The position numbers were made by a program, and so were the translations under genes. Positions 1 to 21,922 of a stretch of DNA of 64,000 bases are shown one piece after another. The notes below the pieces were generated by a model. It saw nothing but the letters and a program-made list of their open reading frames with translations. It had not been told where the DNA came from and did no database searches. This DNA comes from a virus. The stretch's first letter is position 1. The number at the start of each line of letters is the position of its first letter. The stretch spans positions 46,995 through 110,994 of the IMG/VR virus record IMGVR_UViG_3300027747_000004. The stretch is one strand, 5' to 3'.

Positions 1-2
1 AA

Positions 3-1712
3 TCCAAGGGCGAGATGGCCCCCTACATCATGATGGTGGACGAGCAGTCCAGCGAGGTGATCGGCCTGTACCGCAACTGGGAAGAGGGCGACGACACGAT
101 GACCAAGCTCGACTGGATCGTCGAGTTCAAGTTCATCCCGTGGCGCGGCGTGTTTGCCATCGGCCTGCCCCACCTGATCGGCGGCCTGAGCGCGGCCCTG
201 ACCGGCTCCCTGCGCGCGCTGCTAGACAGCGCCCACATCAACAACGCGGCGACCATGCTCAAGCTCAAGGGTGCCAAGATCAGCGGCCAGACGCAGCAGA
301 TCGAGGTCACTCAGGTGGCCGAGATCGAGGGCGCGCCCGGCGTAGATGACATCCGCAAGATCGCGATGCCCATGCCCTTCAACCCACCCAGCGAGACGCT
401 ATTCAAGCTGTTGGGCTGGCTGGACAGCGCGGCCAAGGGCGTGGTCACCACGTCCGAGGAGAAGATCGCCGATGTCAATGCTAACGCTCCGGTAGGTACT
501 ACCCAAGCGTTGATTGAGCAGGGCGCTGCCGTCTACTCCGCAATCCACGCGCGCCTGCACCAGTCGCAGGCTCGCCTGATCAAGGTGCTGTGCCGCCTGA
601 ACCGCTGGCACTTCAAGGAAATGCGCAAGGGCGACATGGTCGCGGACCTTGAGATCGAGCGCGAGGACTTCGAGCGCAACACCGACGTCATCCCGGTCAG
701 CGACCCGCACATCTTTAGCGAAACCCAGCGCATGGCGCAGATGCAGGCCGTGTTGGCCCGCGCGGACGCCAAGCCAGACCTGTACGACGCCAAAGCCGTG
801 GAGGAGCGTTTCCTCAAGCAGATCAAGATTCCCAACGTCAGCGAGCTGCTCAAGGACGTGCCCGAGCCCGAGCAGCGCACTTTGGCCGACGAGAACGCGG
901 CGATGTCCATGGGCCACCCGGCGTATGCCTACATGCAGCAGGACCACATCGCGCACATCCAAGGCCACCTAATGTTTGGCCTAGACCCGAGCTTTGGCGG
1001 CAACCCGCTAATCGCGCCAAACTACCAGCCCAACGCGATTGAACACATCAAGCAGCACATTACGCTGTGGTACCTCAACCGCATGAACGGCTACGTCATT
1101 AACCTGCGCGGCGGCAAGCCGGTGGACGACTATGAAAATCCGCACCTGACCGCCACCATCGACAAACTGTACGCCACCGTCGGCGAGCACGTCGCGTTGG
1201 ACGGCCAGATGGTGTTCCAGCAGATCCTGCCGCAACTTCAACAGATGCAGCAGGCAATGCAACAGAACAAGCCACAACCCCAACTGCCGCCCGATGCCCA
1301 GGTGGTCAAGGACACCGCGATGGCCGAGACCCAGCGCAAAGCGGCCAAGGACCAGCAGGAGATGCAGCTCGCCCAAGCCAAGCTGCAGGACAGCCAACAG
1401 CGCACCCAGGCCGAGATGCAGGCCAACGCGCAGAAGGCCCAGCAGGACACGCAGGTCAACATGCAGAAGGCCCAGCAGGACGCCCAGCTCAAGATGCAGG
1501 ACCTCCAGGCAACGTCTCAGGCCAAGCTGCAGGACACGCAGGTCGATATCCAAGCACGCGAGCAAGAGTCCATGCGCAATGCGCAACTACAATTGGAACT
1601 AGAGCGCATGCACGACCAGACGCAGATTGACATTACAAACGCAAAGTTAACCCACGAAACCATACAGAGTATGGTCCAACCCCAAGGAGCTCCAGATGGC
1701 AACCTCGAATAA
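3..1712 (+). CDS. Portal protein, copy A (5' end outside the window)
   Basis: Portal proteins form the dodecameric ring at the capsid vertex through which DNA is packaged and ejected. The reading frame is open from base 3, so the N-terminus lies upstream. The visible part aligns through its length with the complete portal at 54283-56778, starting near residue 320 of that protein, with shared blocks such as FKFIPWRG, LLDSAHINNA and VSDPHIF. The last ~150 residues are an Ala/Gln/Lys-rich heptad-like region (repeated QKAQQDTQ/QDAQ), probably a coiled coil. Base composition is GC-rich: hand count over 61-180 gives 75/120 G+C, against 56/120 in the matching part of copy B. The portal call rests on homology to copy B, position after terminase in that copy, and size. 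Confidence 0.8.
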   Translation, partial: SKGEMAPYIMMVDEQSSEVIGLYRNWEEGDDTMTKLDWIVEFKFIPWRGVFAIGLPHLIGGLSAALTGSLRALLDSAHINNAATMLKLKGAKISGQTQQIEVTQVAEIEGAPGVDDIRKIAMPMPFNPPSETLFKLLGWLDSAAKGVVTTSEEKIADVNANAPVGTTQALIEQGAAVYSAIHARLHQSQARLIKVLCRLNRWHFKEMRKGDMVADLEIEREDFERNTDVIPVSDPHIFSETQRMAQMQAVLARADAKPDLYDAKAVEERFLKQIKIPNVSELLKDVPEPEQRTLADENAAMSMGHPAYAYMQQDHIAHIQGHLMFGLDPSFGGNPLIAPNYQPNAIEHIKQHITLWYLNRMNGYVINLRGGKPVDDYENPHLTATIDKLYATVGEHVALDGQMVFQQILPQLQQMQQAMQQNKPQPQLPPDAQVVKDTAMAETQRKAAKDQQEMQLAQAKLQDSQQRTQAEMQANAQKAQQDTQVNMQKAQQDAQLKMQDLQATSQAKLQDTQVDIQAREQESMRNAQLQLELERMHDQTQIDITNAKLTHETIQSMVQPQGAPDGNLE

Positions 1713-1851
1713 CTCTCAGACCGGCGAGCTGGTCAAGCAACACCACCGCCTGGCCATGGGTGAGAAGCTCAACGGCCAGAGCCTGCAGCCCAAGGGCGGC
1801 ACCAGCAAGCCCGCTGGCGGCTTGAGCGCGCTGGCCAAGAAGAATAAGTGA
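1696..1851 (+). CDS. Small basic protein (51 aa) after the portal, copy A
   Basis: This short gene starts at ATG 1696 inside the end of the portal gene, with AAGGAG at 1684-1689 as ribosome binding site. It encodes a 51-aa Gly/Lys-rich protein with HHRLAMGEKLNG near the start and a KGG motif. The syntenic gene in copy B (56780-57121) shares the HxRxAMGE core and carries several KKGG/AKGG motifs, which supports this as a real gene. Function is unknown; the position suggests a minor virion or head-assembly protein. Confidence 0.65.
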   Translation: MATSNNSQTGELVKQHHRLAMGEKLNGQSLQPKGGTSKPAGGLSALAKKNK

Positions 1852-2018
1852 TCTCTGAACTTATTCACCAGATCCAGGTCAGGCAGGCGGAGCTTCGCCT
1901 GGCGCTGGTTCAAAACCCCGTGGGCGACCACGCTACATACACACGCATCGTTGGTGAGTACCAGGGCCTGCAATGGGTAATGGACGCACTAAACCAAAAA
2001 CTCGCTGAGAACGAATAA
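1848..2018 (+). CDS. Small helical protein (56 aa), GTG start, copy A
   Basis: The start is GTG at 1848, overlapping the previous stop (GTGA), a typical translational coupling arrangement. The product is a short amphipathic helical protein. It matches copy B 57121-57306 in position, length and pattern (ELIHQIQVRQAEL against ALITLIKQKQLEI; GEYQGLQWVMDALNQKLAE against GRHAGLEETLQIINNLLEE). Conservation between diverged copies is the main evidence that it is translated. Function unknown. Confidence 0.65.
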   Translation: MISELIHQIQVRQAELRLALVQNPVGDHATYTRIVGEYQGLQWVMDALNQKLAENE

Positions 2019-2095
2019 GGCAGCAATGCCCCAAGCCGCGCTGAGATATGCGCATTTTCAAACCTGAAATATGGTTTTTGTCGATAGGAGTGAGT

Positions 2096-2554
2096 ATGAG
2101 CGAGAAAGAAAAGATACCTACCATTGGTGGTGTCCAACAAGAGTCCGACCCAACTGAGCTGGCGTGGGCATTTCCAGACGTTTTACCCGGGCAAGCCCCG
2201 CTAGGTGGCCGCGTCATTGTCCAACTTCGCCGCATCAAGAAAAATGCCGGAAAGATTATCCTGGTCGAGGAGACCAAGGAGAATGAGAAGTGGAACAACA
2301 TGATCGGCAGGGTGGTCGCGATTGGTCCTTTGGCCTACCGCAACCGCGACACCATGCAGGTGTGGCCCGAAGGAAGTTGGGCTGAGATCGGTGACTACGT
2401 GCGCGTGCCTCGGTGGGGCGGGGATCGCTGGGAGCGACCCGTGCTTAACGAAGAAAACGGCGACCTGAACCCGGTCCTGTTCATGACAATCAACGACCAC
2501 GAGGTGATTGCGAAGGTCACTGACGACCCGTTGTCATTTAAAGCCTACGTTTAA
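2096..2554 (+). CDS. GroES-like co-chaperonin, copy A
   Basis: A GroES-type protein caps the GroEL chamber. Phage versions such as T4 gp31 adapt host GroEL to fold the phage capsid protein. The core runs from LGGRVIVQLRR through ENEKWNNMIGRVVAIGPLAY to GDYVRVPRWGGDRW, matching the GroES beta-barrel pattern (valine-rich first strand, VxAxGPG-like turn, GDxV). An N-terminal extension of about 40 residues precedes it. The start at 2096 follows TAGGAG and is preferred over the upstream ATG at 2048, which has no ribosome binding site. The ortholog is 57296-57715. Position between portal and scaffold-like genes fits capsid folding. The mobile-loop residues are not clearly recognisable. Confidence 0.75.
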   Translation: MSEKEKIPTIGGVQQESDPTELAWAFPDVLPGQAPLGGRVIVQLRRIKKNAGKIILVEETKENEKWNNMIGRVVAIGPLAYRNRDTMQVWPEGSWAEIGDYVRVPRWGGDRWERPVLNEENGDLNPVLFMTINDHEVIAKVTDDPLSFKAYV

Positions 2555-2563
2555 GGAAATACC

Positions 2564-3532
2564 ATGGTTACAAATACCGAAAAAGATGATGTTTTGCACG
2601 TGCAGGAAGGCCAAGACGGCACCGCCACGGTAGAACTGCCTGAGGGCATCCTGCCCCAAGACGACAACAACGACGATAAAACGCCCAATAACGCCCAATC
2701 CGACGACGGAAGCGATGACGACCACCCGGACGACAGCGACGCGGTGCGCGCAGCACGCCGCGCACGCCGCCGGTCCAAGAAAGACCTCATCCGCAAGACC
2801 AACGAAGAGAAGGATATTCGCCTGCAGGCCATCCAACGCGAGAACGAGGAGCTGCGAAACCGGCTTTCGCGCGTGGAACAGAAGACTCAGGCTTACGACG
2901 TGGGCCGAATTGAGAAGGCAATTGAGGACCAGCAGGTGCGCATGGAGTATGCGCGCATGAAATTGGCCGAGGCAACCGGTTCTGGTGACGGCGACGGCGC
3001 TGTAAAGGCGCAGGAACTGCTTTACGAGGCCCGAGACAGCCTTCGGCAGCTCGATGCCCTGCGCAGGCAGGCAAATCAGCCCGCGCAACCCGCGGCTCCG
3101 GCCGTAGATTACACCGTGCAACGCCACGCGACCACCTGGATTGAGCGAAACTCATGGTACAAACCCGATTTATCGGATACTGACAGCAAAATCGCAAAAG
3201 TAATCGACGAAGACCTCGTAAAAGAGGGCTGGAACCCCGGAACTGACGATTATTGGGACGAATTAGACTCCCGCTTGCAAAAAAGATTGCCGCATCGCTA
3301 TAATGATTCGTCAGATAAACGTGATACCGACCGACGAACACCAAGGAACACCGTGGGAAGCTCAGGACGTGAAGCATCAGCCGCATACGGGGGCACAAAC
3401 CGCACCTTTACCCTCACCGCTGAACAAGTGCGTGCGATGAAGGACGCGGGTATGTGGGATAACCCCGAAAAACGCGCAAAGATGATCAAACGATACGCAG
3501 CAGAATCCCGTAACAATTCCCGGAGTAACTAA
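2564..3532 (+). CDS. Scaffolding-like protein, copy A
   Basis: The protein has 322 residues. An acidic N-terminus rich in Asp/Asn (about residues 1-60) is followed by an Arg/Lys-rich linker and a long coiled-coil-like segment (about 70-180). The C-terminus carries a conserved block, FTLTAEQVRAMKDAGMWDNP, that recurs nearly unchanged in copy B (58723 end). Acidic and helical composition, and position between the portal and capsid genes, are typical of head scaffolding proteins. The AEQVRAMKDAG block could be the capsid-binding tail, by analogy with P22 scaffold; that is inference. No protease gene is visible nearby. Confidence 0.6.
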   Translation: MVTNTEKDDVLHVQEGQDGTATVELPEGILPQDDNNDDKTPNNAQSDDGSDDDHPDDSDAVRAARRARRRSKKDLIRKTNEEKDIRLQAIQRENEELRNRLSRVEQKTQAYDVGRIEKAIEDQQVRMEYARMKLAEATGSGDGDGAVKAQELLYEARDSLRQLDALRRQANQPAQPAAPAVDYTVQRHATTWIERNSWYKPDLSDTDSKIAKVIDEDLVKEGWNPGTDDYWDELDSRLQKRLPHRYNDSSDKRDTDRRTPRNTVGSSGREASAAYGGTNRTFTLTAEQVRAMKDAGMWDNPEKRAKMIKRYAAESRNNSRSN

Positions 3533-3534
3533 TC

Positions 3535-4083
3535 ATGACCGAATCACGTCTCAAAAAATCTCTCAATGCTGGTGGACGCCAAGATCGCGCAAGCGAGGAC
3601 GCAACCCGCGCAGCACCCGAAGATAAGTTCATTTCAACGCAGGAACGTCGCAAGATGTGGAGCGAAGAGTGGACGCAATCAGCACTGCCCAAACTGCCCA
3701 CATTTGACGGGTGGCATCTTTGCTGGCTTTCAACATCCAACAGCTACGACTCCATTGATAAGCGGATTCGCCTAGGGTACGTTCCAGTTAAATCTGAAGA
3801 GTTACCGGGTTATGAAGACTATCGTGTAAAGGCCGGCGAGCATGTTGGTTACATTTCCTGTAACGAGATGTTGCTGTTCAAGTTACCCATGGACGTTTAC
3901 CAAGAGATCATGATGCACATGCACCACGATCAACCCATCGAAGAGGCGGAGAAAATTCGCGTCCAGGTGGAACAACTCCAAGGTGCACGCGACAGCAATG
4001 GTAAATCGTTGGTAGGCGTTGAAGGCGAAGGATTGGGCAATTTTGATAGGCAACCAAACAAACTACCGGTATTTGCCGGTTAA
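3535..4083 (+). CDS. Conserved head-cassette protein of unknown function, copy A
   Basis: The protein has 182 residues and is conserved in copy B at 58726-59259. The shared core runs FHLCWLSTSNSYDSIDKR, RLGYVPVKSEELPGYE, and KAGEHVGYISCNEMLLFKLPMD, followed by a helical C-terminus. The N-terminus is charged and likely disordered. It starts two bases after the scaffold-like stop. Position between scaffold and decoration-like genes suggests head assembly or maturation. I recognise no enzyme motif. Confidence 0.6.
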   Translation: MTESRLKKSLNAGGRQDRASEDATRAAPEDKFISTQERRKMWSEEWTQSALPKLPTFDGWHLCWLSTSNSYDSIDKRIRLGYVPVKSEELPGYEDYRVKAGEHVGYISCNEMLLFKLPMDVYQEIMMHMHHDQPIEEAEKIRVQVEQLQGARDSNGKSLVGVEGEGLGNFDRQPNKLPVFAG

Positions 4084-4096
4084 CTAAGGAGTTAAT

Positions 4097-4696
4097 ATGA
4101 GTGCTACCTCTGCTCCGTTTGGCCTTCGCCCCGCGTTTCACCCTTCGGGTCTGGATCGCGCACAAGCGCTGGCTGGCGGTATTACATCGGGTTATGCAAC
4201 CCAAATCTTGAAGGGCCAACCCGTTGCCTACTCGGCTTCGGCAGGTGTCATCGTTCCCCTCACTACCGCCCCTGCTGCTGGCTCTGCCGTAGCCTGGTCC
4301 GGTGCCTTTGCTGGCGTTGAGTGGACCGATACCACCGGTCGTCGTCGCGTGTCCAACTACTGGCCCGCAAGCACCGCGTACCAAACTGGTTCGTGCGTCG
4401 CTTATTTCTACAACGACAACAACATCGTTTACGAAATCCAAGCAGACGGTTCGATGGCTCAAACCACAATTGGTAACGAGTACAACTTCACCAATACCAC
4501 CTCTGGTTCTTCCACAACCGGTCTGTCGCAATGCACTTTGGGTGCTTCGACTGCTGCTGGTAACGGTACCCAAGGCCAAATGCGCGTGGTTGATCTTAGT
4601 CAAGCGGTGGATAACGCGTGGGGCGACGCCTACACCGTTGTTCGTGTCGTTAACGCGCAGTCGCAGTTCTTCGGCGCTTTCACTGCTATCGCATAA
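4097..4696 (+). CDS. Capsid decoration-like protein, copy A
   Basis: The protein has 199 residues, is Ser/Thr/Gly-rich and predicted beta-rich, with no signal peptide or membrane segment. It begins MSATSAPFGLRPAFHPSG and is strongly similar to copy B (59278-59871). The gene sits immediately upstream of the major capsid gene, the usual place for decoration or head-stabilising proteins. A good ribosome binding site (AAGGAG) precedes the ATG. The last 42 bases belong to an 86-nt near-identical patch shared with copy B. Decoration is inferred from position and composition; another minor head role is possible. Confidence 0.55.
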   Translation: MSATSAPFGLRPAFHPSGLDRAQALAGGITSGYATQILKGQPVAYSASAGVIVPLTTAPAAGSAVAWSGAFAGVEWTDTTGRRRVSNYWPASTAYQTGSCVAYFYNDNNIVYEIQADGSMAQTTIGNEYNFTNTTSGSSTTGLSQCTLGASTAAGNGTQGQMRVVDLSQAVDNAWGDAYTVVRVVNAQSQFFGAFTAIA

Positions 4697-4740
4697 GGAG
4701 AATAAATAATGGCTGCACCAATGAGAAGTACGGACTTTCG
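4655..4740 (+). repeat. 86-nt near-identical boundary patch (partner 59830-59915)
   Basis: This segment spans the end of the decoration-like gene, the intergenic ribosome binding site and the first 32 bases of the capsid gene. It matches 59830-59915 with a single difference (C at 4690, T in the partner), while the sequence on both sides is clearly diverged. Such an island at a gene boundary could be a recombination joint between related phages, or a point where an assembler switched haplotype. Confidence 0.85.
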
Positions 4741-5623
4741 TTCAATCGTCGAACCGATTTTGAACGAATGCTTCGACGGCGTTTACGACCAACGCGCTGA
4801 TGAATGGTCTCGTGTCTTCCGCGAGGAAGACGGTATCCCCCGCAACTACCACGAAGAACCCGTCCTTTACGGTTTCGGCGCGGCACCCCAACTGCCTGAC
4901 GGCACCCCGGTGACGTACCAACAAGGTGGCGTGTTGTTCCTGAAGCGCTATGTCTACAAGGTCTACGGTCTGGCTTTTGCCTTGACCAAGGTCCTGGTGG
5001 AAGACGGCGACCACATCCGCTTGGGCCAAGTGTACGCACGTCATTTGGCACAGTCGCTAGTGGAGACCAAGGAACTGCTGTCCGCTAACGTCTTGAACGT
5101 GGCATTCAACAGCTCCTACCCCGGTGGCGACGGCGTGCCTTTGATCAGCACCGCCCACCCCATCGTGAACGGTACCTTCAGCAACCAGTTGGCCACCGCC
5201 GCTGTTCTGTCCCAGACATCTCTTGAGCAGATGCTGATCCAGATCCGCCAGGCAGTGGACAACAACGGCAAACGTATCCGCTTGGTGCCACGTCAGTTGG
5301 TCGTTGCCCCCGGCAACGTGTTCCAAGCTGAGGTGCTGCTGAAGTCGGTCCTGCGCACCGGCAACGCCAACAACGACATCAACCCGGTGAAATCCATCGG
5401 CTTGTTGGATGAGGGCGCTGCCGTTCTGTCTCGCTTGACCAGCGCCAACGCATGGTGGGTCCAGACCGATGCACCCGAGGGCTTCAAGCTCTTGATGCGT
5501 CGTCGTCTGGAAAAGACCATGGAAGGCGACTTCGAGACCGACTCGATGCGCTACAAGGCTACCGAGCGTTATGATGTGGGCTTCACTGACCCCCGTTGCG
5601 CTTACGGCACACCTGGTATCTAA
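4709..5623 (+). CDS. Major capsid protein, copy A
   Basis: The protein has 304 residues and would form the HK97-fold shell. It resembles the Mu gpT-like and podoviral capsid group: a central LISTAHPIVNGTFSNQL-type segment, RLVPRQLVVAPGNVFQAE, and a C-terminal QTDAPEGFKLLMRR followed by a DFETDSMRYKATERY block. The ribosome binding site (AAGGAG, 8 nt from ATG) is the strongest nearby, consistent with high expression, and a rho-independent terminator follows at 5640-5671. The copy B homolog is 59884-60798. No N-terminal delta-domain or protease site is evident, in line with a separate scaffold. Confidence 0.85.
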   Translation: MAAPMRSTDFRSIVEPILNECFDGVYDQRADEWSRVFREEDGIPRNYHEEPVLYGFGAAPQLPDGTPVTYQQGGVLFLKRYVYKVYGLAFALTKVLVEDGDHIRLGQVYARHLAQSLVETKELLSANVLNVAFNSSYPGGDGVPLISTAHPIVNGTFSNQLATAAVLSQTSLEQMLIQIRQAVDNNGKRIRLVPRQLVVAPGNVFQAEVLLKSVLRTGNANNDINPVKSIGLLDEGAAVLSRLTSANAWWVQTDAPEGFKLLMRRRLEKTMEGDFETDSMRYKATERYDVGFTDPRCAYGTPGI

Positions 5624-5639
5624 TACCAGCAAAGGCCTT

Positions 5640-5671
5640 GGCGGGGGGCCTTAATCCCCCGCCCCATTTTT
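5640..5671 (+). terminator. Rho-independent terminator after the capsid gene
   Basis: The stem is GGCGGGGG (5640-5647) pairing with CCCCCGCC (5656-5663), with a short loop and a T-run at 5667-5671. It lies directly after the capsid gene stop. Copy B has a terminator with different sequence in the same place (60805-60836). Confidence 0.85.
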
Positions 5672-5702
5672 AACATCGGTCAAACTTTTCAAGGAGCAGA
5701 CC

Positions 5703-6953
5703 ATGCCTCAATTCGCAGATGACATCTTTCTGGGCGGTAACAACGGCCAGACCTACATGGGCACCGGCAACTACCCTGCCACGTCCGTATTTACCGGCCG
5801 TATTGCTACGACCACCCTTACCGTATATTCGACCCAGTCCGGTGACCCTTTGGTAGTTGGCCAGTACATTACCGGCTCTAGCGTAACCGCCAACTCCTAC
5901 ATCACCGCTGACCTCGGACAGGATAGCTCTGGTCGCAATACTTATACCCTGTCTCAGTCATCTACCGTGTCGTCCAACACAACTATGACGGCCGCTGGCA
6001 ACGCCTTGCTGGGCGATCCTTCGCCGATGTCTTTGGGCGTTGGTCCTTTGGGCCGCATCTACGTGTTTGACACCGTGCCCCAGACCCTGCAGGCCGCAAA
6101 CATCGCTGCATCGCAAACTCAAACTGCTGCAGGCGCGTTGACCCTGACTGCCGGTACCTCGGCTCGATCTGTGACCCGCAGCGATGGCACCACGGTGATT
6201 CAGTTGGACGTTCCTCGTGCAACCAGCGTCACGACCGGTACAGCAACCGGAACGGCTTTGGCTGGCGTGGCCACGACTGGCACCGGCGGCCAGATCTCGT
6301 TCACGTCTAATACCAGCGTGTACACCGGCCAGTACGTGACCGTGTCTGGCACCGCAGGCGGTACCGGTTCGATTACTGGCTACAGCAACCCTACGACCTA
6401 CATCCTGTCTGCCGTAACCGCTACTACCGCGACCCTGTTGACCACCGCAAGCGGTGCTGTTGCATCTACCGCGGGTACGATTACTGGCCTGACCTTTACC
6501 CTGGGCGCGGCTCCCCGCGCTATGACGGTTGCGGGCTACGACTACTACGGCCAGGCCATGAGCGAGGTTATCACCAGCAGCTCTTCGGTCAGCACCGCAG
6601 TCAGCGGCAAGAAAGCGTTCTACCAGATCTCTTCTATCACCAGCGCAGGTGCAACCGGAACTGCGGTAACCGCAGGAACCACCGACGTGATTGGTTTGCC
6701 AGTCCGCGTGACGGACGCAGGCTACGTGATCAAGGTGGGCTGGAACAACGCCCTGCTGCAGAATGCTGGTACCTTCACGGCCGCCGACATGACATTGCCA
6801 GCTACCACTACCACAGGTGACGTGCGCGGCACATTCTTGCCTACCACAGCCTCTGATGGCACCAAGCGTTTGGTCATGTCCATCGCTGTGCCCGGTATCG
6901 CAGTCGGACCCAATGCAACCCGCACTGGTGCCCTTGGTGTAACCCAAGCCTAA
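5703..6953 (+). CDS. Virion structural protein with inserted beta modules, copy A
   Basis: The protein has 416 residues, rich in Thr, Ser, Gly and Ala, and predicted to be all beta. It is orthologous to 60869-62191: both start MPQF(A/S)DD(I/L)FLG, share a GPxGR(I/V)Y segment, a VxGYDYYGQxMSE motif, and end with GPN(A/S)TRxGxLG(V/S)xQA. Copy A carries an extra module at about residues 25-100 that copy B lacks, and lacks a module near the C-terminus that copy B has. Position after the capsid gene suggests a head fibre, decoration or head-tail protein. The ribosome binding site is AAGGAGC. Confidence 0.55.
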   Translation: MPQFADDIFLGGNNGQTYMGTGNYPATSVFTGRIATTTLTVYSTQSGDPLVVGQYITGSSVTANSYITADLGQDSSGRNTYTLSQSSTVSSNTTMTAAGNALLGDPSPMSLGVGPLGRIYVFDTVPQTLQAANIAASQTQTAAGALTLTAGTSARSVTRSDGTTVIQLDVPRATSVTTGTATGTALAGVATTGTGGQISFTSNTSVYTGQYVTVSGTAGGTGSITGYSNPTTYILSAVTATTATLLTTASGAVASTAGTITGLTFTLGAAPRAMTVAGYDYYGQAMSEVITSSSSVSTAVSGKKAFYQISSITSAGATGTAVTAGTTDVIGLPVRVTDAGYVIKVGWNNALLQNAGTFTAADMTLPATTTTGDVRGTFLPTTASDGTKRLVMSIAVPGIAVGPNATRTGALGVTQA

Positions 6954-6966
6954 GGAGTGAAATACC

Positions 6967-8523
6967 ATGGCAACAAAGAAATCTAGCGGCGGTTTCGCCC
7001 AGATGCCTAAGATGATGACCAATGAGCCCTCGGCCATTCTGAAGCTGAAAAAAGGTGGCCACGTAGCTTCGGCTCACAAGGACGAGCATGGCCACACCAA
7101 CATGAAGGGTGATGCCTTCAAGGCCAAGTACGCCATGGACAAGGCAGAAGATGGCGCGGCTCCCAAAAAGCCGTCCATGGCCGAACGTCGCAAAGCGATG
7201 TCCGGTGCCCTGCTTAACTCCAAGAAGGGTGGCAAAGTTGCAAAGCATGAAGATGCCGCGCAGGACCGCGCCATGATCAAGAAGGCCCTGGCAGGCAAGA
7301 AGTTTGCTGCTGGCGGCACCATTAAGGGTAATGCTGGCAAGTTTGCTAAGACCAAAGTCGTTGACGGTGACAAAAAAGACACCGCCAAGGGCACCGGTGT
7401 TGTGAAGATGGGCAAGCCCGCTGGTTACAAAACCGGCGGAACCATTGAAGGCAACGCTGGCAAGTTTGTCAAGACCAAAGTGGTTGGTGGCGACAAGACC
7501 GACAAAGCACACGGTACCAAGGGTATCAAAGAGGGCCAGCCTGCTGGTTTCAAAAAGGGCGGCAAGATTGGTTGGGAAAATCGCCCAGCCGATGATGGCG
7601 ACCATTTTGACCCGGCTCATGGTACTGGTGGCGTGCGCGAAGGCAACGCTGGCGGCTACAAAAAAGGCGGTGCTGCAAAAAAGCATTTTGCCACGGGGGG
7701 CAGCGTTAATGATGCTGGCCGCGCCGTGGCAATGCCCCGCAAACCTGTGTCTCGTCCCGTAGCAAACAGCTTGCAATCTGGCACCTTCAAAAAAGGTGGC
7801 AAGGTCAAGAAGTATGCTGATGGCGGTAATGTTAGTGGTGGCATGGGCGGCACGGGTGGTACTACGCCGATGGATTACGCAATATCATCAAACCAATCTG
7901 CGTCAGTGCCGGGCGCACCTATAGGTGCAACTTTTGATGGCCCGGCACCGATGAATCCTTTTGGAGGCATGAATCCCAACATCGGCAAACCCGGCGCAAC
8001 AATCATGCCAACCATGGGAACAACTTCGCCAGTTCCCGCTGACCTGCAACAACAAGGACAGCAAGCGGCAATGCAGAAAGCGGCAATGCAGCAAGCGGCA
8101 ATGCAGCAACCACCTATGAGTCAGCAGCAGCTAATGCAGCGTGCCCCAATGGGTGGCTTTGGTGGTATGCGCCCCCCAATGGGCGGAATGCGTCCTCCGA
8201 TGGGTAACATGCGTCCAATGCCGGTTGCCTACAATCCGAACGGCGCTACCAAGCTGTACAAAAAAGGCGGTAAGGTCAAGAAATTCGACATCGGTGGAAG
8301 CACTGGCAACGACATTCAAGATCTGTCCAATGGCGCGTATGCTGGAACCTACAAGAACCAGCGTGATGAAAACGAACGCGACCGAGAAGCCATCTTGGGG
8401 GCACCAGGAAGGGCGTATGATGCTGTCAAACGTCTGCTTGGAGGAAAGCCTGGCGCGGGAGCCGGTCGTGGGATGGTGAACCCGCCTATGGCCAAAAAAC
8501 GCGGTGGCGGCGCTAAGTGCTAA
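6967..8523 (+). CDS. Lys/Gly repeat protein (518 aa), copy A
   Basis: This strongly basic protein is built from repeats ending in KKGG, KTGG, FAAGG or YADGG. Two long units are visible, each of the form GGTIxGNAGKFxKTKVVxGDK followed by a GxPAGxKxGG end (about residues 115-200). A Met/Gln/Pro/Gly-rich stretch (about 340-420) follows, then a further KKGGKVKKFDIGG. No enzyme domain is visible. The copy B counterpart (62204-63001) is about half the length. High charge and low complexity suggest DNA or scaffold association inside the head, or tagging for assembly; this is inference. Confidence 0.55.
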   Translation: MATKKSSGGFAQMPKMMTNEPSAILKLKKGGHVASAHKDEHGHTNMKGDAFKAKYAMDKAEDGAAPKKPSMAERRKAMSGALLNSKKGGKVAKHEDAAQDRAMIKKALAGKKFAAGGTIKGNAGKFAKTKVVDGDKKDTAKGTGVVKMGKPAGYKTGGTIEGNAGKFVKTKVVGGDKTDKAHGTKGIKEGQPAGFKKGGKIGWENRPADDGDHFDPAHGTGGVREGNAGGYKKGGAAKKHFATGGSVNDAGRAVAMPRKPVSRPVANSLQSGTFKKGGKVKKYADGGNVSGGMGGTGGTTPMDYAISSNQSASVPGAPIGATFDGPAPMNPFGGMNPNIGKPGATIMPTMGTTSPVPADLQQQGQQAAMQKAAMQQAAMQQPPMSQQQLMQRAPMGGFGGMRPPMGGMRPPMGNMRPMPVAYNPNGATKLYKKGGKVKKFDIGGSTGNDIQDLSNGAYAGTYKNQRDENERDREAILGAPGRAYDAVKRLLGGKPGAGAGRGMVNPPMAKKRGGGAKC

Positions 8524-8525
8524 CA

Positions 8526-8550
8526 GCAGGGGCTTCGGCCCCTGCTTTTT
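8526..8550 (+). terminator. Rho-independent terminator before the 8568 gene
   Basis: A perfect 8-bp stem GCAGGGGC/GCCCCTGC closes a TTCG tetraloop and is followed by five T. The same terminator sits at 63007-63031 in copy B with one changed stem base that leaves a G-T pair. The shared hairpin and the sequence following it are nearly identical in the two copies. Confidence 0.9.
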
Positions 8551-8567
8551 AATTATTAGGTGAAAAA

Positions 8568-11195
8568 ATGTCCCAACTCGTCGTCTACACAGGCCCCAGC
8601 AGCCAAACCGATAATCAACTGCGCACACAGACTTCACAGCGTTCGGCTGCATATGACCCTGTGGACAAGTTGCGCACATCCAATCCTCAAGCATTGATTG
8701 ACACCGACTTTGAGTATGGCACCCAGCCAACCAAATGGGAATCAATCGGTCTTCAAAACAATCGTCAAAGCTGCTACTACATTGCGCAGTCCCCACTGAC
8801 AATCACGGGCATCACGGGCGCAAACACCTTGAATGGCGGATTCACGTTAGCAGGCACTTTCAGCTTGACCGCAGGCGACATCATCTACATTCAAAACTCC
8901 CTGAACACGGATTGCAATGGTTGGATGTATGTCACCACCACCTCAACAACCAGCGTCAATGTTCAAACAGCAGTAGGTACCACAATCCCTGCAACCAACT
9001 TCTACAACAGTGCAGGAACTTACGTCTACAAAGGCTACTTTTACTCGTCATGTGGGTTTAACCTGACAGGCACCAGCGCGGTAACTAATGTTGGTACAAC
9101 GATCACGGTAACCACGACAAGCGCGCATGGTTTGAATGCAAACAGCTTGATCTACGTGGTTGGCTTGGGCGGTGGTACACCAGCCCCAAATGGCGCGTAT
9201 ATTGTTGCTACTGTACCTACAGCAAATACGTTCACCTACATAGTCGCATCAGCGCCTACAGTTGCCATCACCAACACAGCAGGCGCAACCAACATATACG
9301 CACGACCTGCTGGTTATGTTGAAACTCGATCTTTTGACGGTGGCGTTGCATTCTCTGCTGGCTCTGCTGTTCCAAACCAACAGTTGATCCGCCAAACTCG
9401 TCGCTACTTCCGTTACCAATCGGGAAAGGGCATCCAGTTTTCTACAGGTTCCTCGTTGAAGCCTTACTTGTTCAACCCATCGTTGAGTGCAAGCGGAACA
9501 TCTATCGGCGCAACCATTACGGTCACCACGCAGTTTCCTCATAACCTAACTGCAAACACAGTTGTGACGGTTGCAGGCGTGGATCAAACGGGTTACAACG
9601 GCACATACACAATTCTTTCTACGGGCTTGACTGCAACTGCATTTACTTACACTGCAACAACCGCCCCTTCCTCTACAACAGCAACTGGATTGAACATCAA
9701 GGTCAGCCCGTTTAGTTGGTATGGATCAGGCAATCGCATTGGCTTCTTTGATCAACAAAACGGAATGTTTTTTGAGTTTGACGGCCAAGTACTGTATGCA
9801 GTGTTACGTAGTTCTACAACCCAAATTAATGGCAGGTCAACTGTAACTACGGGTTCTGGAACCATTACAGGAACAGGAACGCAGTTTAGCACGCAACTGA
9901 AACCCGGCGACTATATTGTTATACGCGGTCAGTCGTACAAGGTGATCACAATCACCAGCGACACCTCCATGCAAGTCTCCCCAGAGTACCGAGGTGGCAC
10001 GATCAGCCAGGGCGGTGTAATTATTTCTAAGACAATTGATACACGTACGCCACAGTCGCAGTGGTTTGACGTATGTGATGGCACAAGCAGTATCAATAAC
10101 CCTTCGGGCTATCTGCTTGATTTGACGCGCATGCAAATGTGGTATATCGATTACTCATGGTATGGCGCTGGCTATGTTCGTTTTGGATTTCGCGGTAAAG
10201 ACGGTGCGGTGACCTATGTGCATCAGATCCAAAACAACAACATCAAGTACGAAGCCTACATGCGTTCTGGCAACATGGCAGCGCACTACGAGTCCAACAA
10301 CCAGTCGCTGGTGACCTACATTACTGCGTCTGCAGGAACAAGCGATACCACATTGAACGTGGCAAGTACCACAGCATTTGCGCCTACTGGTACTTTAAAA
10401 GTGCAAGCAAGCGGTACGTCTGGTGTAATTGAGTACATGACCTACACAGGCAAGACGGACACCACGTTTACCGGGTTGACTCGTGCAACCACTGGTGGCG
10501 CTGCTACCGCGCAGTCATTTACTTACTCTGCTACCGCCCCGGTTGCAGTTGAATACGCATCACCTGACACTGCTGCGGCTCTGTCTCACTGGGGTTCTTC
10601 GGTCATCATGGATGGGCAGTTCAATGATGACAAGTCGCTGATCTTTAACTACGGAACCACGGCGCAGCTTGCTGTTCCTGCGGGGGCAACCGTCCCTATT
10701 ATTGCGATTCGTATTGCACCATCTGTGGACAACGGACAGGTTGGCCTGCTTGGTGTTAAAGAAATTGTCAACCGTATGCAACTGCAATTGGTTGAGTTGG
10801 GTATTGTTTCTGCTGGTACGTTTCTAATTAACTTGGTTTTGAATGGATACTGCACTAGCTTTAGCGGGTCATGGAGTTCACCTACAGTCTCCAATGGGTA
10901 CACCTCTTCATTAGCGCAAGTAGCGGTTAACACAACTACTACAGCGTCAATTAGCGGCGGTGAATCAGTTGCTGCAGCGTTCACCAATTCAAGCGGGCAA
11001 ACTACACTAGATTTAAGTGGAGTTCGGGATTTGGGTAACTCTATCCTTGGGGGCGGTACTACCTCTTCGGTTCCAACCGGACAATCGGGGCAGTACCCAG
11101 ATGGGCCTGATATTTTGTATGTAGCTGCTACTAATACGGCAGGATCAGCTACAAATATTTTGGCTCGTTTGAGCTGGAAAGAAGCGCAGGCCTAA
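8568..11195 (+). CDS. Large beta-rich virion protein (875 aa)
   Basis: The protein is Thr/Ser/Asn-rich. The N-terminal 60 residues differ from the copy B gene (63048) but residues from about 57 onward are almost identical there. At least two copies of a beta module are visible, with pattern hGLxxNxxxxVxG...NGxYxxxxVxxxxFTY (about residues 175-245 and 310-365). A segment near residue 515 (YSWYGAGYVRFGFRG, then DGAVTYVHQIQNNN) looks like a conserved structural core rather than filler. No peptidase or glycosidase motif is seen. The position suggests a tail or head-tail structural component; no precise family is recognised. Confidence 0.6.
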   Translation: MSQLVVYTGPSSQTDNQLRTQTSQRSAAYDPVDKLRTSNPQALIDTDFEYGTQPTKWESIGLQNNRQSCYYIAQSPLTITGITGANTLNGGFTLAGTFSLTAGDIIYIQNSLNTDCNGWMYVTTTSTTSVNVQTAVGTTIPATNFYNSAGTYVYKGYFYSSCGFNLTGTSAVTNVGTTITVTTTSAHGLNANSLIYVVGLGGGTPAPNGAYIVATVPTANTFTYIVASAPTVAITNTAGATNIYARPAGYVETRSFDGGVAFSAGSAVPNQQLIRQTRRYFRYQSGKGIQFSTGSSLKPYLFNPSLSASGTSIGATITVTTQFPHNLTANTVVTVAGVDQTGYNGTYTILSTGLTATAFTYTATTAPSSTTATGLNIKVSPFSWYGSGNRIGFFDQQNGMFFEFDGQVLYAVLRSSTTQINGRSTVTTGSGTITGTGTQFSTQLKPGDYIVIRGQSYKVITITSDTSMQVSPEYRGGTISQGGVIISKTIDTRTPQSQWFDVCDGTSSINNPSGYLLDLTRMQMWYIDYSWYGAGYVRFGFRGKDGAVTYVHQIQNNNIKYEAYMRSGNMAAHYESNNQSLVTYITASAGTSDTTLNVASTTAFAPTGTLKVQASGTSGVIEYMTYTGKTDTTFTGLTRATTGGAATAQSFTYSATAPVAVEYASPDTAAALSHWGSSVIMDGQFNDDKSLIFNYGTTAQLAVPAGATVPIIAIRIAPSVDNGQVGLLGVKEIVNRMQLQLVELGIVSAGTFLINLVLNGYCTSFSGSWSSPTVSNGYTSSLAQVAVNTTTTASISGGESVAAAFTNSSGQTTLDLSGVRDLGNSILGGGTTSSVPTGQSGQYPDGPDILYVAATNTAGSATNILARLSWKEAQA
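8902..9520 (+). repeat. 619-nt exact direct repeat (partner 63382-64000)
   Basis: Read base by base, 8902-9520 equals 63382-64000 at a constant offset of 54,480. Between 8761 and 8901 only six differences occur, and upstream of about 8755 the copies diverge abruptly. The partner runs to the last base of the window, so the identity may continue beyond it. This indicates either terminal redundancy of a circularly permuted genome or an assembly that came round to the same sequence. Confidence 0.95.
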
Positions 11196-11196
11196 T

Positions 11197-11742
11197 ATGC
11201 CACTAGTCAAAAGCAAATCAAAAGAAGCGTTCAGCAAAAACATTTCTGCAGAAATGAAAGCTGGCAAGCCGCAAAAGCAAGCGGTAGCCATTGCCTACTC
11301 TGTTAAGAATGCTGTTGGCAAAAAGTCTGGTGGCTTGTGGGATAACATTCACGCTAAGCAAGAGCGCATTAAAAATGGATCTGGCGAGCGTATGCGCAAG
11401 CCCGGCTCAAAAGGCGCGCCAACCGCTGCCGACTTTAAAGCATCAGCTAAGCCTGCCAAAATGAAAAACGGCGGCGACCCTGTGCTGTCTGTTAGCCGCG
11501 GTGAAAAGTTGCCTACAAGCCAAGGCGCAGGTTTGACGCAAAAAGGACGTGACAAGTTTAACCGCGCAACTGGTAGCAACCTTAAGGCTCCGCAGGCAAA
11601 AGGCTCCAGACATGACTCATTTTGCGCAAGAATGAGTGGCATGCCTGGGCCTATGAAAGATGATAAAGGCCGCCCAACACGCAAAGCCGCGTCGCTAAAA
11701 CGCTGGCATTGCGCTACAGGCGGCACAGTTAAAAACTACTAG
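11197..11742 (+). CDS. Conserved small basic phage protein (181 aa)
   Basis: The N-terminus (VKSKSKEAFSKNISAEMKAG, then a KQAVAIAYSV stretch) is a short module I recognise as common in phage and prophage proteins of unknown function. The C-terminal part (GLTQKGRDKFNRATGS, then RHDSFCARMSGMPGPM and KGRPTRKAASLKRWHC) is a second recurrent module, often seen at the end of virion-associated proteins. The protein is very basic, has KNGG/ATGG motifs like the 6967 protein, and starts one base after the preceding stop. Function unknown, probably virion-associated. Confidence 0.6.
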   Translation: MPLVKSKSKEAFSKNISAEMKAGKPQKQAVAIAYSVKNAVGKKSGGLWDNIHAKQERIKNGSGERMRKPGSKGAPTAADFKASAKPAKMKNGGDPVLSVSRGEKLPTSQGAGLTQKGRDKFNRATGSNLKAPQAKGSRHDSFCARMSGMPGPMKDDKGRPTRKAASLKRWHCATGGTVKNY

Positions 11743-11752
11743 GTAATCCCAC

Positions 11753-12811
11753 ATGTCAACAAGCGGTACTGTTGGGCAAACTGTAATCACTGTACAAAAT
11801 CTTATTGACAGTGGTGCTCGTCGTGCAGGAAAGCTTGCTGAAGAGCTTACGTCTGAGCAAATACAGGCGTCCAAGCAAAGCTTGTACTACCTACTGTCAA
11901 ATCTTGTTAATCGCGGCATTCAATATTGGTGCATCCAAAAAGTAGTGCTGGGCTTAGTGCCTGACAAATACATTTATGATATGCCTGTTGGTGTCAATGA
12001 CATCTTAAACTCAAATTACCGCACACTTACTGCAAACACATCAGGCGGGTACAGCTCTTCAGGTAATTCAGCCAACGTATTTGATGGGCAATACACAAAT
12101 ATTTGCCAACTTAGCAGCAATACAGGCGTTATTGGCATCAACAATGGCTCTGGAAGCCCGGTCTACGTGGGCTCCGTGGGTATCCTACCAGCCGTGTCGG
12201 GTTCTGTGACTCTGAGTGTGCAATACTCGCTTGATAATAGCACTTGGGTAACACTTTACAGCCCTGGCGCCACTACTTGGGTTGCGGGCACATGGGTTTA
12301 CTACGACTTGGACCCGTCTGCGTCTGCGCCATATTGGAGAATTCAGCAAACTGCCGGCGTAAACATGGGTGTGTACCAAGTTGTGTTTGGGTCTAACGCA
12401 ACTGAAATCCCACTTGCACGCTTGAATCGTGATGACTACACGAACTTGCCCAACAAAAACTTTTTGAACAACTACCCGCTGCAATATTGGTTTGATCGTA
12501 CTATTCCGCAGCCGTCCATGTACTTATGGCCAACACCAAATACCTACGCACCTCAGATTGTGGCGTGGTGTTCATACTATGTGCAGGATGTAGGTAACCT
12601 CTCAGGTTCAATCCAAATACCCCAGCGATGGTATCTGGCCATCCAGAATATGCTTGCGCACCAGATGGCCATGGAGCTACCTGGCGTTGATGCAGCACGA
12701 ATTCAATATTGCGAAAATCAGGCTGAAAAGTACTGGATGCAAGCAGAGCAAGAAGAACGTGACAAGTCGCCAATTTATTTTGCGCCTAACATTAGTGTGT
12801 ACACACGATGA
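11753..12811 (+). CDS. Tail-adaptor-like protein with an inserted carbohydrate-binding-like domain
   Basis: The N-terminal ~85 residues (helical, LTSEQIQASKQSLYYLLSNL, then YDMPVGVNDI) and the C-terminal part (PLARLNRDDYTNLP, then PQPSMYLWPTP and a helical tail) resemble podoviral head-tail adaptor or tail-tube proteins (P22 gp4 / T7 gp11 type). Between them, about residues 90-215, lies a beta domain that reads like an F5/8 type C (discoidin) fold: NVFDGQYT at the start, VQYSLDNSTWVTLY in the middle, and a closing YWRIQQTA strand. If so, the domain sits on the outside of the tail and may bind glycans. Family calls are by eye only. Confidence 0.55.
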   Translation: MSTSGTVGQTVITVQNLIDSGARRAGKLAEELTSEQIQASKQSLYYLLSNLVNRGIQYWCIQKVVLGLVPDKYIYDMPVGVNDILNSNYRTLTANTSGGYSSSGNSANVFDGQYTNICQLSSNTGVIGINNGSGSPVYVGSVGILPAVSGSVTLSVQYSLDNSTWVTLYSPGATTWVAGTWVYYDLDPSASAPYWRIQQTAGVNMGVYQVVFGSNATEIPLARLNRDDYTNLPNKNFLNNYPLQYWFDRTIPQPSMYLWPTPNTYAPQIVAWCSYYVQDVGNLSGSIQIPQRWYLAIQNMLAHQMAMELPGVDAARIQYCENQAEKYWMQAEQEERDKSPIYFAPNISVYTR

Positions 12812-13179
12812 GCAAATGGCTTGATACTTTAGGTAATGCTGTATTGTCGATTGCTATTTGCGATCGATGCAAGATGAAGCGCGCCTACAGTGACATGTCG
12901 CAAGATAGAAACATTCCGGGTTTACGTGTATGCAATCAAGGCTGCAATGACGAGCGTGACCCATACCGCTTACCTGCACGACAGCCTGAAAAGATTGCTA
13001 TTCGCTTCCCACGTCCTGACGAAGATGTTGCAGAAGTTGATAACGCGCTGACCACTGACCCTAATGTTGTAACCAACTTAAATCAAACTATTACACACAC
13101 AACGGCAGGTGAGTATGGCATTGCACCTGAGACGTCGCAAAACCCGATTGATGGCAACCTTGACAATTTGAGCCCATAA
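12808..13179 (+). CDS. Small zinc-ribbon-like tail-region protein
   Basis: The protein has 123 residues. The N-terminal part has ICDRCKMKRAYSDM and VCNQGCNDERDPYRLPARQP: four cysteines in a CxxC...CxxxC arrangement suggest a small metal-binding fold. This core, with DPYRLPARQPEK, is one I know as recurrent next to tail genes in podoviruses. The start overlaps the upstream stop (ATGA). The C-terminus is Asn/Thr-rich and likely flexible. Its role is unknown; assembly or tail structure is likely from context. Confidence 0.6.
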   Translation: MSKWLDTLGNAVLSIAICDRCKMKRAYSDMSQDRNIPGLRVCNQGCNDERDPYRLPARQPEKIAIRFPRPDEDVAEVDNALTTDPNVVTNLNQTITHTTAGEYGIAPETSQNPIDGNLDNLSP

Positions 13180-13547
13180 TGCCATACAACAATAATTTAT
13201 TTGTTCCGCGTGCAAAGTATCAAACATTTACCCCAATGTTTTTGGGGCAAGCTGCCCTAACCACGTCTGCTGCTGTAATTTATCTTGCGCCTGTGCAGGC
13301 GTTGACAGCCATTCGTGACATTGTAGTTGTTAATACTTCAGGTTCAACGGCAACACTTAACTTGTATATTGTCTCGCCTGTTGCAACAGCAGGCACAAGC
13401 AATGCAATTTATTACGGGTATTCACTTACTGCAGGGCAAACGTTATGCTGGACAGGTGAGCAAATACTTGCAGGATTGTGGACTTTACAAGGCAGTGCAT
13501 CAGCAACAGGTCTTACTGTTACAGTCAGCGGTGGGATGTATATATAA
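13179..13547 (+). CDS. Small beta-rich structural protein (122 aa)
   Basis: The start overlaps the previous stop by one base (TAATG). The protein is rich in Thr, Ala, Val and Leu in alternating beta pattern (AVIYLAPVQALTAIRDIVVVN, SGSTATLNLYIVSPV), ending in VSGGMYI. It resembles small beta-sandwich baseplate or fibre-anchor proteins that precede tail fibre genes. No family is recognised with certainty. Confidence 0.5.
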   Translation: MPYNNNLFVPRAKYQTFTPMFLGQAALTTSAAVIYLAPVQALTAIRDIVVVNTSGSTATLNLYIVSPVATAGTSNAIYYGYSLTAGQTLCWTGEQILAGLWTLQGSASATGLTVTVSGGMYI

Positions 13548-13581
13548 CTGTAACTTAGCAATATAAAATACCGGTACAAGT

Positions 13582-16500
13582 ATGGCAAACATTCGTATAT
13601 CGCAACTACCCGCAGCAACTACACTTGCTGGTACAGAGTCCGTGCCAATTGTGCAGAATGGGGTCACAGTTCAAACCACGGTGGGGGCAATTGCGAACGC
13701 ATATTCGCAGACACAAACCTATGTAACCGTTAATCAAGAATCAAGCCTAGCCAACAGCCAAGTGCTCACAGCGGGCGATGGGATAAATGTTACCGCCAGC
13801 GTCCCTCAAGGAAACATCAAAGTATCCTTGAAAAATTCTGGTGTGTCTGCTGGCAGCTTCACCAATGCCAATGTAACGGTTGATCAATATGGTCGCGTTA
13901 CTGCGGCATCAAATGGTGCTAGCAGTGGAACGGGAACGGTAACCTCTGTTGCGCTTACTGCTCCATCGTTCTTGTCGGTAACCGGAAGCCCAATTACCAG
14001 CAATGGAACATTGGGATTAAGCTATTCTGGAACTGCTTTGCCTGTGGCAAATGGTGGCACAGGAGTTACAACGTCTACAGGTTCTGGCAATACTGTTTTG
14101 TCTACCTCGCCAACATTGGTTACGCCAAATCTTGGTATTCCAGCATCAGTAACATTGACAAATGCTACGGGTTTGCCTTTGTCAACTGGTGTTACTGGAA
14201 CTTTGCCAATTGCAAATGGTGGAACAGGTACAACTACGCCTTCTTTGGTAGCTGGTACAAACGTCACCATTACCGGCTCTTGGCCAAATCAAACCATTAA
14301 CTCTACTGGAGGCGGTGGTAGCGGCACCGTAACTTCTGTTGCTGCAACTGTTCCTTCTTTCTTGTCGGTTACTGGTAGCCCCATTACGACAAGTGGAACT
14401 TTGGGTATTGGATATTCCAGTACTGCACTCCCTGTTGCAAATGGTGGTACAGGAGCAACGTCAGCATCTGCGGCACAAGCAAACTTGATGGGGTTTACAA
14501 CTACTGCAACCGCAGCAGGAACTACTACATTAACAAATACAAGTAGTTATTATCAAGTATTTACTGGCACAAGTAATCAAAATATAAAACTTCCTTTAAC
14601 ATCAACATTAACACTTGGCTGGTCATTTTTTATTTTTAACGCAACTACCAATGGAAATTTAACTGTTCGTAGTTCAACTAATATTGTAATTACAGTACTT
14701 ATCCCTAACATGGGTGTAATTGTTACTTGTAAAAGTACAACAATAACAACTGAGGCAGCATGGTATTATGTTTTTACTGGAACAAATGATTATGCCGGTA
14801 GCGGTGCTATGGTCTTGCAAAATGGGCCTTCTTTGATTAATGCAGATTTAGGTACGCCATCTGCAGCAGTTCTTACAAATGCTACAGGACTTCCCTTAAG
14901 TACGGGAGTAACAGGTACATTACCTGTTGCAAATGGCGGTACAGGTTCGACCTCCACACAATTTGTTAACCTAGCTTCCAATGTCACAGGCACTTTGCCA
15001 ATTGCAAATGGAGGCACAGGATCAACTTCAACAACTTTTGTAAATCTTGCTTCCAATGTCACTGGAACTTTACCTGTGGCAAATGGCGGAACAGGCATCG
15101 CCACGCTGACGGCTAATTACATCCCATATGGCAATGGTACCAGTGCCTTTGCATCTTCTTCTGGGTTCACTTACAACCCCACCACCACCACGCTGACAGC
15201 GCCTGTGCTGATCGTAAATTCAACCACCAGCACAACACCCAATTTGACGTTTAACGCCAGCAATTCGGGCTTTACTTCTGGCGCAGCGGTGTCTGGCAGT
15301 TACTTGCAGACCGTCATTCAAAACAGTAGTGGCACGGCAGGCGCGTCCACCAACTACGTCTTGAGCAATGACTTGGGCACCGACTCCACCTACTATGGTG
15401 AGTTTGGCATGAACTCGTCGGTGTACTCAGGTGCAAGCATCCCTGCTGACTTTTTCAGCATCAACAATGGCCTGTACTTTTCGGGCCACGATGGAGACAT
15501 CACCGTAGGCTCTGGCAACGGCTTCAAGACCTACCTTGCGTGGGGCGCAACTGGTGGCTCTGCCCACGTTATCAATGCCTCTGGTGCTATTGGTTTGAAC
15601 ACCAATTTGGCGGCTGGAGCAGGATCAGGCACAACCAACTTTGGCACTGCGGGTTATGTGATGACCAGCGCAGGCAATGCCGCCACCCCCACTTGGTCGC
15701 AAGTCAGTTTATCTGCTGGTGTCACTGGAACATTACCACTAGCAAATGGCGGTACAGGCAAAACAACAGCACCTGCTGCACAAGCCAACTTGTTGGGCTA
15801 CACGGCTACTTCTACCACCGCCCTCGCAACCACTGCCGCGACTGGCTCTGCTGGTACAGCCACCTTGACTTTTGCAGTGCAAGCTTCAGCGCCCTATGCT
15901 CTTGGCTCATATATTTCCGTTCAAGGTGTAACGCCTACGGGGTATAACGGCTATTACCAAGTAACTGGATGCACGACCACTACCGTTTCTTACACCAACG
16001 CAACCACTGGCGCTCAAACTGTTGCTGGAAGTATTTCTCCAACAACAACGCTTACCAATACAAGCAGTTTTTATCAATATTGCACCTCAACATTGCAGGG
16101 TTCATATGTATTGCCTGATACATCAACTTTACAAGCTGGTTGGGCATTTAGAATTTCTGCGGTAGGGGTTTCTACATACGTATATAGTTTAAGCGGAGCC
16201 TTAGTAGCAGGCATTACATCAAGTACATCATATTATTTTGTATGTATTGATACCACTGTAAATACTGCTGCTGCTTGGAGGAGTGAGATTACATCGACTG
16301 CTGGATTTACTGGCTCCGGAAGCATGGTGCTTTCTAGTGGCCCGACTATTACTGGTACTCTTAACTTTACTGGTTCTACAACCAATTCAGCAAATATTGG
16401 TACAGCAATAACAACTGGTTTAATTACAGTTGGCGGCACTGCCGGTTTAGGTTTAATTAACATTGGTCGAGCAACAACCTCCCAGCCAATTCAAATTGGT

Positions 16501-17166
16501 TCAGGTGTCACCGCCTCCTCAACAACTGCATCAGGCACGGCCAGTTCAATCACAACTACTGTATTGACCGTTGGCGGTACTGTAACTGGCACGTTCTCGA
16601 TTGGTATGGCATTGTCGGGCACAGGCGTGTTGCCGGGTACATACATCATCAGCTTGGGTACGGGTGCAGGCGGTGCAGGTACATACAACATAAACCAAAC
16701 CCAGACCGTAACATCGACCACCATTACAGGCACAACCCAGAAGTCCATTGATATTGGAACGGGCGGAGCATCGGGCTCCATCACGGCCATCACGCTTGGC
16801 TCTGCTACATCTGGCGCTACGTCAACGACTACGATCAATGGAGCATTGAACTACGCTGTTAATGCAGTGACCGTAACATCCAATGCTGGAACTGTCCCCG
16901 TTGGATACAAGGTAAATAACTTCACAAATAGTTCAGCCGCAACAATGGCTATTACTATGGCGGTTACAGGTGCTGTTGATGGGCAAATGACTATTGTTCG
17001 TATCTATGATTTTAGTGCAGCAACGCAAACAATCGGATGGACAAATACTGAGAATAGCACCATCAACGTTCCAACTACATCAAATGGCTCCACAACCCTC
17101 CCTCTAACAGTGGGATTCATGTACAACAGCCAGACATCTAGATGGCGTTGCATAGCATCTGCTTAA
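13582..17166 (+). CDS. Long tail fibre with GGTG repeats (1194 aa)
   Basis: The fibre recognises the host surface. Its hallmark is the repeated motif (T)LP(V/I/L)ANGGTG(S/T), present seven times between about residues 150 and 735, a signature of trimeric phage tail fibres. A block beginning with AAQANLxG(F/Y)T and running through TLTNTSS(Y/F)YQ to SGxMVLxxGP occurs twice, an internal duplication. The N-terminus (MANIRISQLPAATTLAGTES, then VPIVQNG) is the usual fibre attachment start. The C-terminus has no S74 chaperone; that domain is carried by the 18050 product. Confidence 0.8.
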   Translation: MANIRISQLPAATTLAGTESVPIVQNGVTVQTTVGAIANAYSQTQTYVTVNQESSLANSQVLTAGDGINVTASVPQGNIKVSLKNSGVSAGSFTNANVTVDQYGRVTAASNGASSGTGTVTSVALTAPSFLSVTGSPITSNGTLGLSYSGTALPVANGGTGVTTSTGSGNTVLSTSPTLVTPNLGIPASVTLTNATGLPLSTGVTGTLPIANGGTGTTTPSLVAGTNVTITGSWPNQTINSTGGGGSGTVTSVAATVPSFLSVTGSPITTSGTLGIGYSSTALPVANGGTGATSASAAQANLMGFTTTATAAGTTTLTNTSSYYQVFTGTSNQNIKLPLTSTLTLGWSFFIFNATTNGNLTVRSSTNIVITVLIPNMGVIVTCKSTTITTEAAWYYVFTGTNDYAGSGAMVLQNGPSLINADLGTPSAAVLTNATGLPLSTGVTGTLPVANGGTGSTSTQFVNLASNVTGTLPIANGGTGSTSTTFVNLASNVTGTLPVANGGTGIATLTANYIPYGNGTSAFASSSGFTYNPTTTTLTAPVLIVNSTTSTTPNLTFNASNSGFTSGAAVSGSYLQTVIQNSSGTAGASTNYVLSNDLGTDSTYYGEFGMNSSVYSGASIPADFFSINNGLYFSGHDGDITVGSGNGFKTYLAWGATGGSAHVINASGAIGLNTNLAAGAGSGTTNFGTAGYVMTSAGNAATPTWSQVSLSAGVTGTLPLANGGTGKTTAPAAQANLLGYTATSTTALATTAATGSAGTATLTFAVQASAPYALGSYISVQGVTPTGYNGYYQVTGCTTTTVSYTNATTGAQTVAGSISPTTTLTNTSSFYQYCTSTLQGSYVLPDTSTLQAGWAFRISAVGVSTYVYSLSGALVAGITSSTSYYFVCIDTTVNTAAAWRSEITSTAGFTGSGSMVLSSGPTITGTLNFTGSTTNSANIGTAITTGLITVGGTAGLGLINIGRATTSQPIQIGSGVTASSTTASGTASSITTTVLTVGGTVTGTFSIGMALSGTGVLPGTYIISLGTGAGGAGTYNINQTQTVTSTTITGTTQKSIDIGTGGASGSITAITLGSATSGATSTTTINGALNYAVNAVTVTSNAGTVPVGYKVNNFTNSSAATMAITMAVTGAVDGQMTIVRIYDFSAATQTIGWTNTENSTINVPTTSNGSTTLPLTVGFMYNSQTSRWRCIASA

Positions 17167-17167
17167 T

Positions 17168-18040: not shown

Positions 18041-18049
18041 GAGCCAATC

Positions 18050-19327: not shown

Positions 19328-19342
19328 CCCAAAGGAAATACC

Positions 19343-19639: not shown

Positions 19640-19646
19640 TGTTCAA

Positions 19647-20126: not shown

Positions 20127-20127
20127 A

Positions 20128-21053: not shown

Positions 21054-21060
21054 GTATAAA

Positions 21061-21920: not shown

Positions 21921-21922
21921 TC

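Follow-up and report, generated by a model that had tools for sequence, protein, structure and literature searches.

Two capsid gene sets in a 111-kb viral contig very likely reflect an assembly chimera of two related tailed phages

Introduction

The closest described systems are Caudoviricetes sp. ctpbd312 (MW202545.1) and the Caulobacter phages RW, KcrB, RLK and GB2A, in which terminase, portal, GroES-like and capsid genes follow the order found in the phage DNA studied here. Relative to the second of the two genome units described below (unit 2), their portals are 51-63% and their terminases 46-60% identical. They differ in having genomes of 57-62 kb with a single portal and a single capsid set. 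Among the named phages whose portals are related are phages of Caulobacter (62 kb), Roseobacter (52-53 kb) and Pelagibacter (58-61 kb), and isolates with related portals fall between 50 and 65 kb. Contigs of IMG/VR that hold more than one genome copy have been judged probable assembly artefacts, and circular templates, once assembled, are known to give end repeats of length k (CheckV paper, PMC8116208). Contigs built from de Bruijn graphs break at regions shared between genomes, where assemblers leave end sequences of maxK length (COBRA paper, PMC10914622).

Here we analyzed an IMG/VR record of 110,994 bp (IMGVR_UViG_3300027747_000004). The window, a stretch of 64,000 nt, corresponds to bases 46,995-110,994 of that record, and it contains two diverged sets of portal and capsid genes. 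By gene order and a homologous portal, the DNA belongs with the Caulobacter phage RW-like or MW202545-like tailed phages, a likeness that is one of genes rather than of formal taxonomy.

Results

Self-alignment of the whole contig gave a match at an offset of ~55 kb and, together with gene pairing, resolved two phage genomes, both complete and collinear with each other: unit 1 (contig 1-56,514) and unit 2 (contig 56,388-110,994). Pairing gene by gene assigned one collinear set of terminase, portal, capsid, 875-aa virion protein and tail genes to each unit, and each unit has replication genes of its own. The window holds the final ~9 kb of unit 1 and the whole of unit 2. An exact-match search found only one identical sequence longer than 127 bp between the units; it is 619 bp long, lies inside the 875-aa virion-protein gene and is termed S. 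The main features are as follows (window coordinates unless stated otherwise; copy A belongs to unit 1 and copy B to unit 2).

1..9520 (contig 46995-56514), + strand: end of unit 1, from the 3' part of the portal to the 875-aa gene; a separate 56,014-bp contig is identical but for one base
9394..64000 (contig 56388-110994), + strand: unit 2, complete
1..1712, + strand: portal, copy A, phrog_1216; cut by the window edge, full gene (878 aa) at contig 46070-48706
54283..56778, + strand: portal, copy B, 831 aa, phrog_1216
4709..5623, + strand: major capsid protein, copy A, 304 aa, PF25209 Phage_capsid_4
59884..60798, + strand: major capsid protein, copy B, 304 aa, 86% identical to copy A
Contig 38630-40099, outside the window: terminase large subunit, unit 1
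48549..49976, + strand: terminase large subunit, unit 2, PF03237/PF17289
8568..11195, + strand: 875-aa virion structural protein gene, spanning the switch, phrog_5838 (E=5e-216)
63048..64000, + strand: 5' part of the 875-aa gene of unit 2, continuing at contig base 1 over the circular join
8902..9520 (contig 55896-56514), + strand: S, first copy; contains the switch from unit 1 to unit 2
63382..64000 (contig 110376-110994), + strand: S, second copy, at the contig end

From the portal to the 875-aa gene, which starts at 8568, nine gene pairs occur in the same order in copies A and B. Protein identities, in order, are 59-60% (portal), 55% (GroES-like), 39%, 55%, 85%, 86% (major capsid protein) and 41%, followed by a weak pair (6967-8523 vs. 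62204-63001) that is 57% identical over 30 aa only, and finally by the 875-aa gene, whose copies are 97% identical in protein over the first 317 aa. In every pair that precedes the 875-aa gene except 3535-4083 (0.497 vs. 0.498), copy A has the higher G+C content, while in the 875-aa gene the copies are equal (0.493/0.492); base composition shifts near this gene. A GroES-like co-chaperonin gene lies between the portal and capsid genes in both phages (2048-2554 and 57278-57715) and is also annotated in MW202545.1 and Caulobacter phage RW. On the reverse strand, antisense to the copy B capsid gene and the gene preceding it, there is an open frame of 457 aa (59266-60639); the antisense frame is open in a relative (G008) as well, with 53% identity, and most likely only mirrors the conservation of the sense genes.

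These data bear directly on the original prediction, which had been made from the window. Its hand counts of G+C over a matching portal segment (75/120 at 61-180 and 56/120 at 55261-55380) were exact. Its claim that every gene from the portal to 8568 is doubled, diverged and in the same order holds for the nine ordered pairs, with the exception of a small ORF (56780-57121) that has no matched partner in copy A. The doubling had been described as two capsid cassettes at the ends of the window; in fact, the whole 111-kb contig is doubled, terminase and tail genes included. Copy A had been attributed to a related phage of higher G+C, which is correct as to origin but not as to scale, since copy A, far from being a cassette, forms the end of another complete genome of ~56 kb that lies mostly outside the window. 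The proposed comparison of codon usage likewise separated the units: within unit 1, early and capsid regions lie 0.52 apart, whereas they are 1.25-1.43 from those of unit 2. The tail region of unit 1 is intermediate in codon usage.

The early regions of the two units are largely different. A family A polymerase is present in each unit, and the similarity between the two is only marginal. Unit 1 further encodes an SNF2-type helicase, an AAA_25 protein and a Mom-family protein, and unit 2 a helicase and a primase-like protein of its own. The Mom-family DNA-modification gene of unit 1 (PF25680, E=1e-33; L005 3703-4389, reverse strand) adjoins the helicase gene, and protein comparison found no counterpart in unit 2. 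In these otherwise unrelated regions there are also two short inverted blocks of 40 and 66 bp that are 91-95% identical (window 43307-43546, reverse strand, vs. L005 10601-10840). The blocks sit in small ORFs with 44% protein identity, and an Rfam search with them gave no match. A tandem repeat with units of ~54 bp (window 25766-26022) was seen inside a 503-aa gene of unit 2, whose tape-measure match is weak.

The first 127 bp of the contig are the same as its last 127 bp, which are in turn the last 127 bp of S. The two loops so delimited measure 56,387 and 54,480 bp. Both units were traced to other assemblies, unit 1 in its entirety and unit 2 only as an 8.7-kb fragment and in the form of relatives. 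IMGVR_UViG_3300010334_000073 (56,014 bp) corresponds to contig positions 5-56018 with one mismatch and is thus the whole of unit 1 alone; it begins with the last 123 bp of S and finishes with the first 123 bp of S. In a third record set, IMGVR_UViG_3300010885_019075 (8,700 bp) opens with the last 123 bp of S and then follows unit 2 with one mismatch. Both contigs broke at the edges of S, and the overlap fits k=123. Exact-pattern scans of viral contigs with the middle of S and the unit 2 portal matched no other contig, and no contig turned up that runs directly from unit 1 back into unit 1, or from exactly unit 2 back into unit 2, across S.

Portal matches were present in 23 of 24 relatives' contigs of 51-60 kb, and each of the 23 has one portal; second matches in two of them (G011 and G025) are fragments of that one gene. 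Of the 18 relatives tested, 5 carry end repeats of exactly 127 or 123 bp and therefore appear closed, at 56-59 kb. One closed relative (G008, 56,760 bp) has the gene set of unit 1, including the polymerase (75%) and the AAA_25 protein (68%), and another (G018, 58,573 bp) has that of unit 2, including the polymerase (77%) and the primase (60%). In a nearer relative of unit 2 (L165), unit-2-like sequence flanks the homologue of S on both sides.

Synonymous differences between the units are near saturation in all other gene pairs tested (pS 0.65-0.89). For the 875-aa gene the overall value is 0.34, with 0-0.014 in codons 101-300 and 0.13-0.76 in the rest of the gene. Synonymous identity in codons 101-300, next to neighbours with pS of up to 0.76, indicates that exchange in this gene was recent and patchy. 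Within unit 1, GC3 of the 875-aa gene is 0.48, compared with 0.57-0.66 in the two preceding genes and 0.75 in the following one. The gene is 81-82% identical in L165 and 56-64% identical in phages with unit-1-like portals; no match to it was found in the closed relatives G008 and G018. These figures point to, but do not prove, acquisition of the 875-aa gene by unit 1 from a lineage of lower G+C. Since the switch falls within this gene, the two versions that the contig contains are probably chimeric, with 8568..11195 as written probably consisting of the 5' part from unit 1 and the 3' part from unit 2.

Discussion

We conclude that short-read assembly almost certainly fused two complete phages of the same family from one sample, so that the contig is a chimera and not a duplication. 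In the route we propose, each genome would measure ~54.5-56.4 kb and close as a circle. A recent natural exchange in part of the 875-aa gene left 619 bp exactly identical, and this natural patch supplied the identical sequence within which the assembler would have switched. In an assembly graph with k=127, S would be one node linking two circles in a figure of eight. An assembler could then pass from the last 127 bp of the node through unit 1, the node, unit 2 and the node again, and the resulting 127-bp end repeat would give the look of one closed 111-kb genome. An overlap of 127 bp is what is expected of a k=127 path through a shared node. Each unit presumably closes on itself through S, the relatives and the genome sizes point to the same pairing of flanks across S, and we infer that the data were short reads. 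At the switch lies an exactly shared sequence that exceeds k, with end overlaps of k-mer length there (127 bp, and 123 bp in the two other contigs). Haplotype switching during assembly, which the original prediction had offered as one account of the join, is also the account that fits it best.

Taken as assembled, the contig would read as a true 110.9-kb phage in which two complete, diverged genomes were fused by crossover or homologous recombination at S in the virion gene, and it closes with a 127-bp end repeat. The graph alone also fits one circle of 110.9 kb, because S would then be a two-copy repeat. Such a heterodimer is nevertheless very unlikely, given that each of the 23 relatives checked carries a single portal in its 51-60 kb (56-59 kb in the closed ones), that isolates with related portals do not exceed 65 kb, that the end repeat matches the k-mer length exactly and coincides with the end of S, and that unit 1 was recovered alone in another assembly. 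Moreover, a capsid of this family would need to pack twice its usual DNA. The single portals of the relatives, some of them closed circles, also uphold the earlier opinion that one phage with two capsid sets is improbable. The change in base composition near the 875-aa gene and the recent exchange of part of that gene between both lineages could suggest instead that one phage gained a second capsid cassette from a high-G+C relative. However, copy A is joined to another 47 kb that belong to that high-G+C phage and carry a terminase, a polymerase and tail genes of their own, which leaves this kind of module exchange extremely improbable; full-contig alignment led us to reject both cassette import and true duplication. 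Natural exchange, the other source of the join that had been predicted, is real as a patch in the 875-aa gene and does not apply to the capsid cassette, since copy A belongs to the whole genome of unit 1. That recent patch is the sole real exchange between the units. Two related prophages arranged in tandem in one bacterial chromosome could also give head-to-tail units of this kind, but here the junction is inside a virion gene and the ends of the contig close on each other with an overlap of exactly k. The window showed neither a bacterial flank nor a tRNA, and a short-pattern scan of bacterial and archaeal genomes, which could miss distant relatives, found none of the portal. Tandem prophages, which we give next to no probability, were rejected on these grounds.

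The chimera of two phages resembles the concatemers of the CheckV paper (PMC8116208) in holding multiple genome copies in one contig. In those concatemers the same genome is repeated and k-mer frequency is raised, whereas the present contig joins two diverged genomes; its mean 20-mer multiplicity is 1.014, vs. 2.0 in a homodimer control. Concatemer checks based on k-mer frequency would pass it, because the genomes are too diverged to share k-mers. Ends of maxK length, as at the breaks of the COBRA paper (PMC10914622), are found here at the edges of S (123 and 127 bp). Unlike those breaks, however, one assembler ran through the shared region and joined two genomes. Counting single-copy genes such as the terminase and portal would catch a contig of this type.

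The analysis disposes of a spurious phage with two capsids and of a spurious closed genome of 111 kb. A phage with two capsids is very likely not a real feature here, and the doubled capsid sets are very likely an assembly artefact. Exchange of a patch between phages that are otherwise saturated with synonymous differences is ordinary mosaicism.
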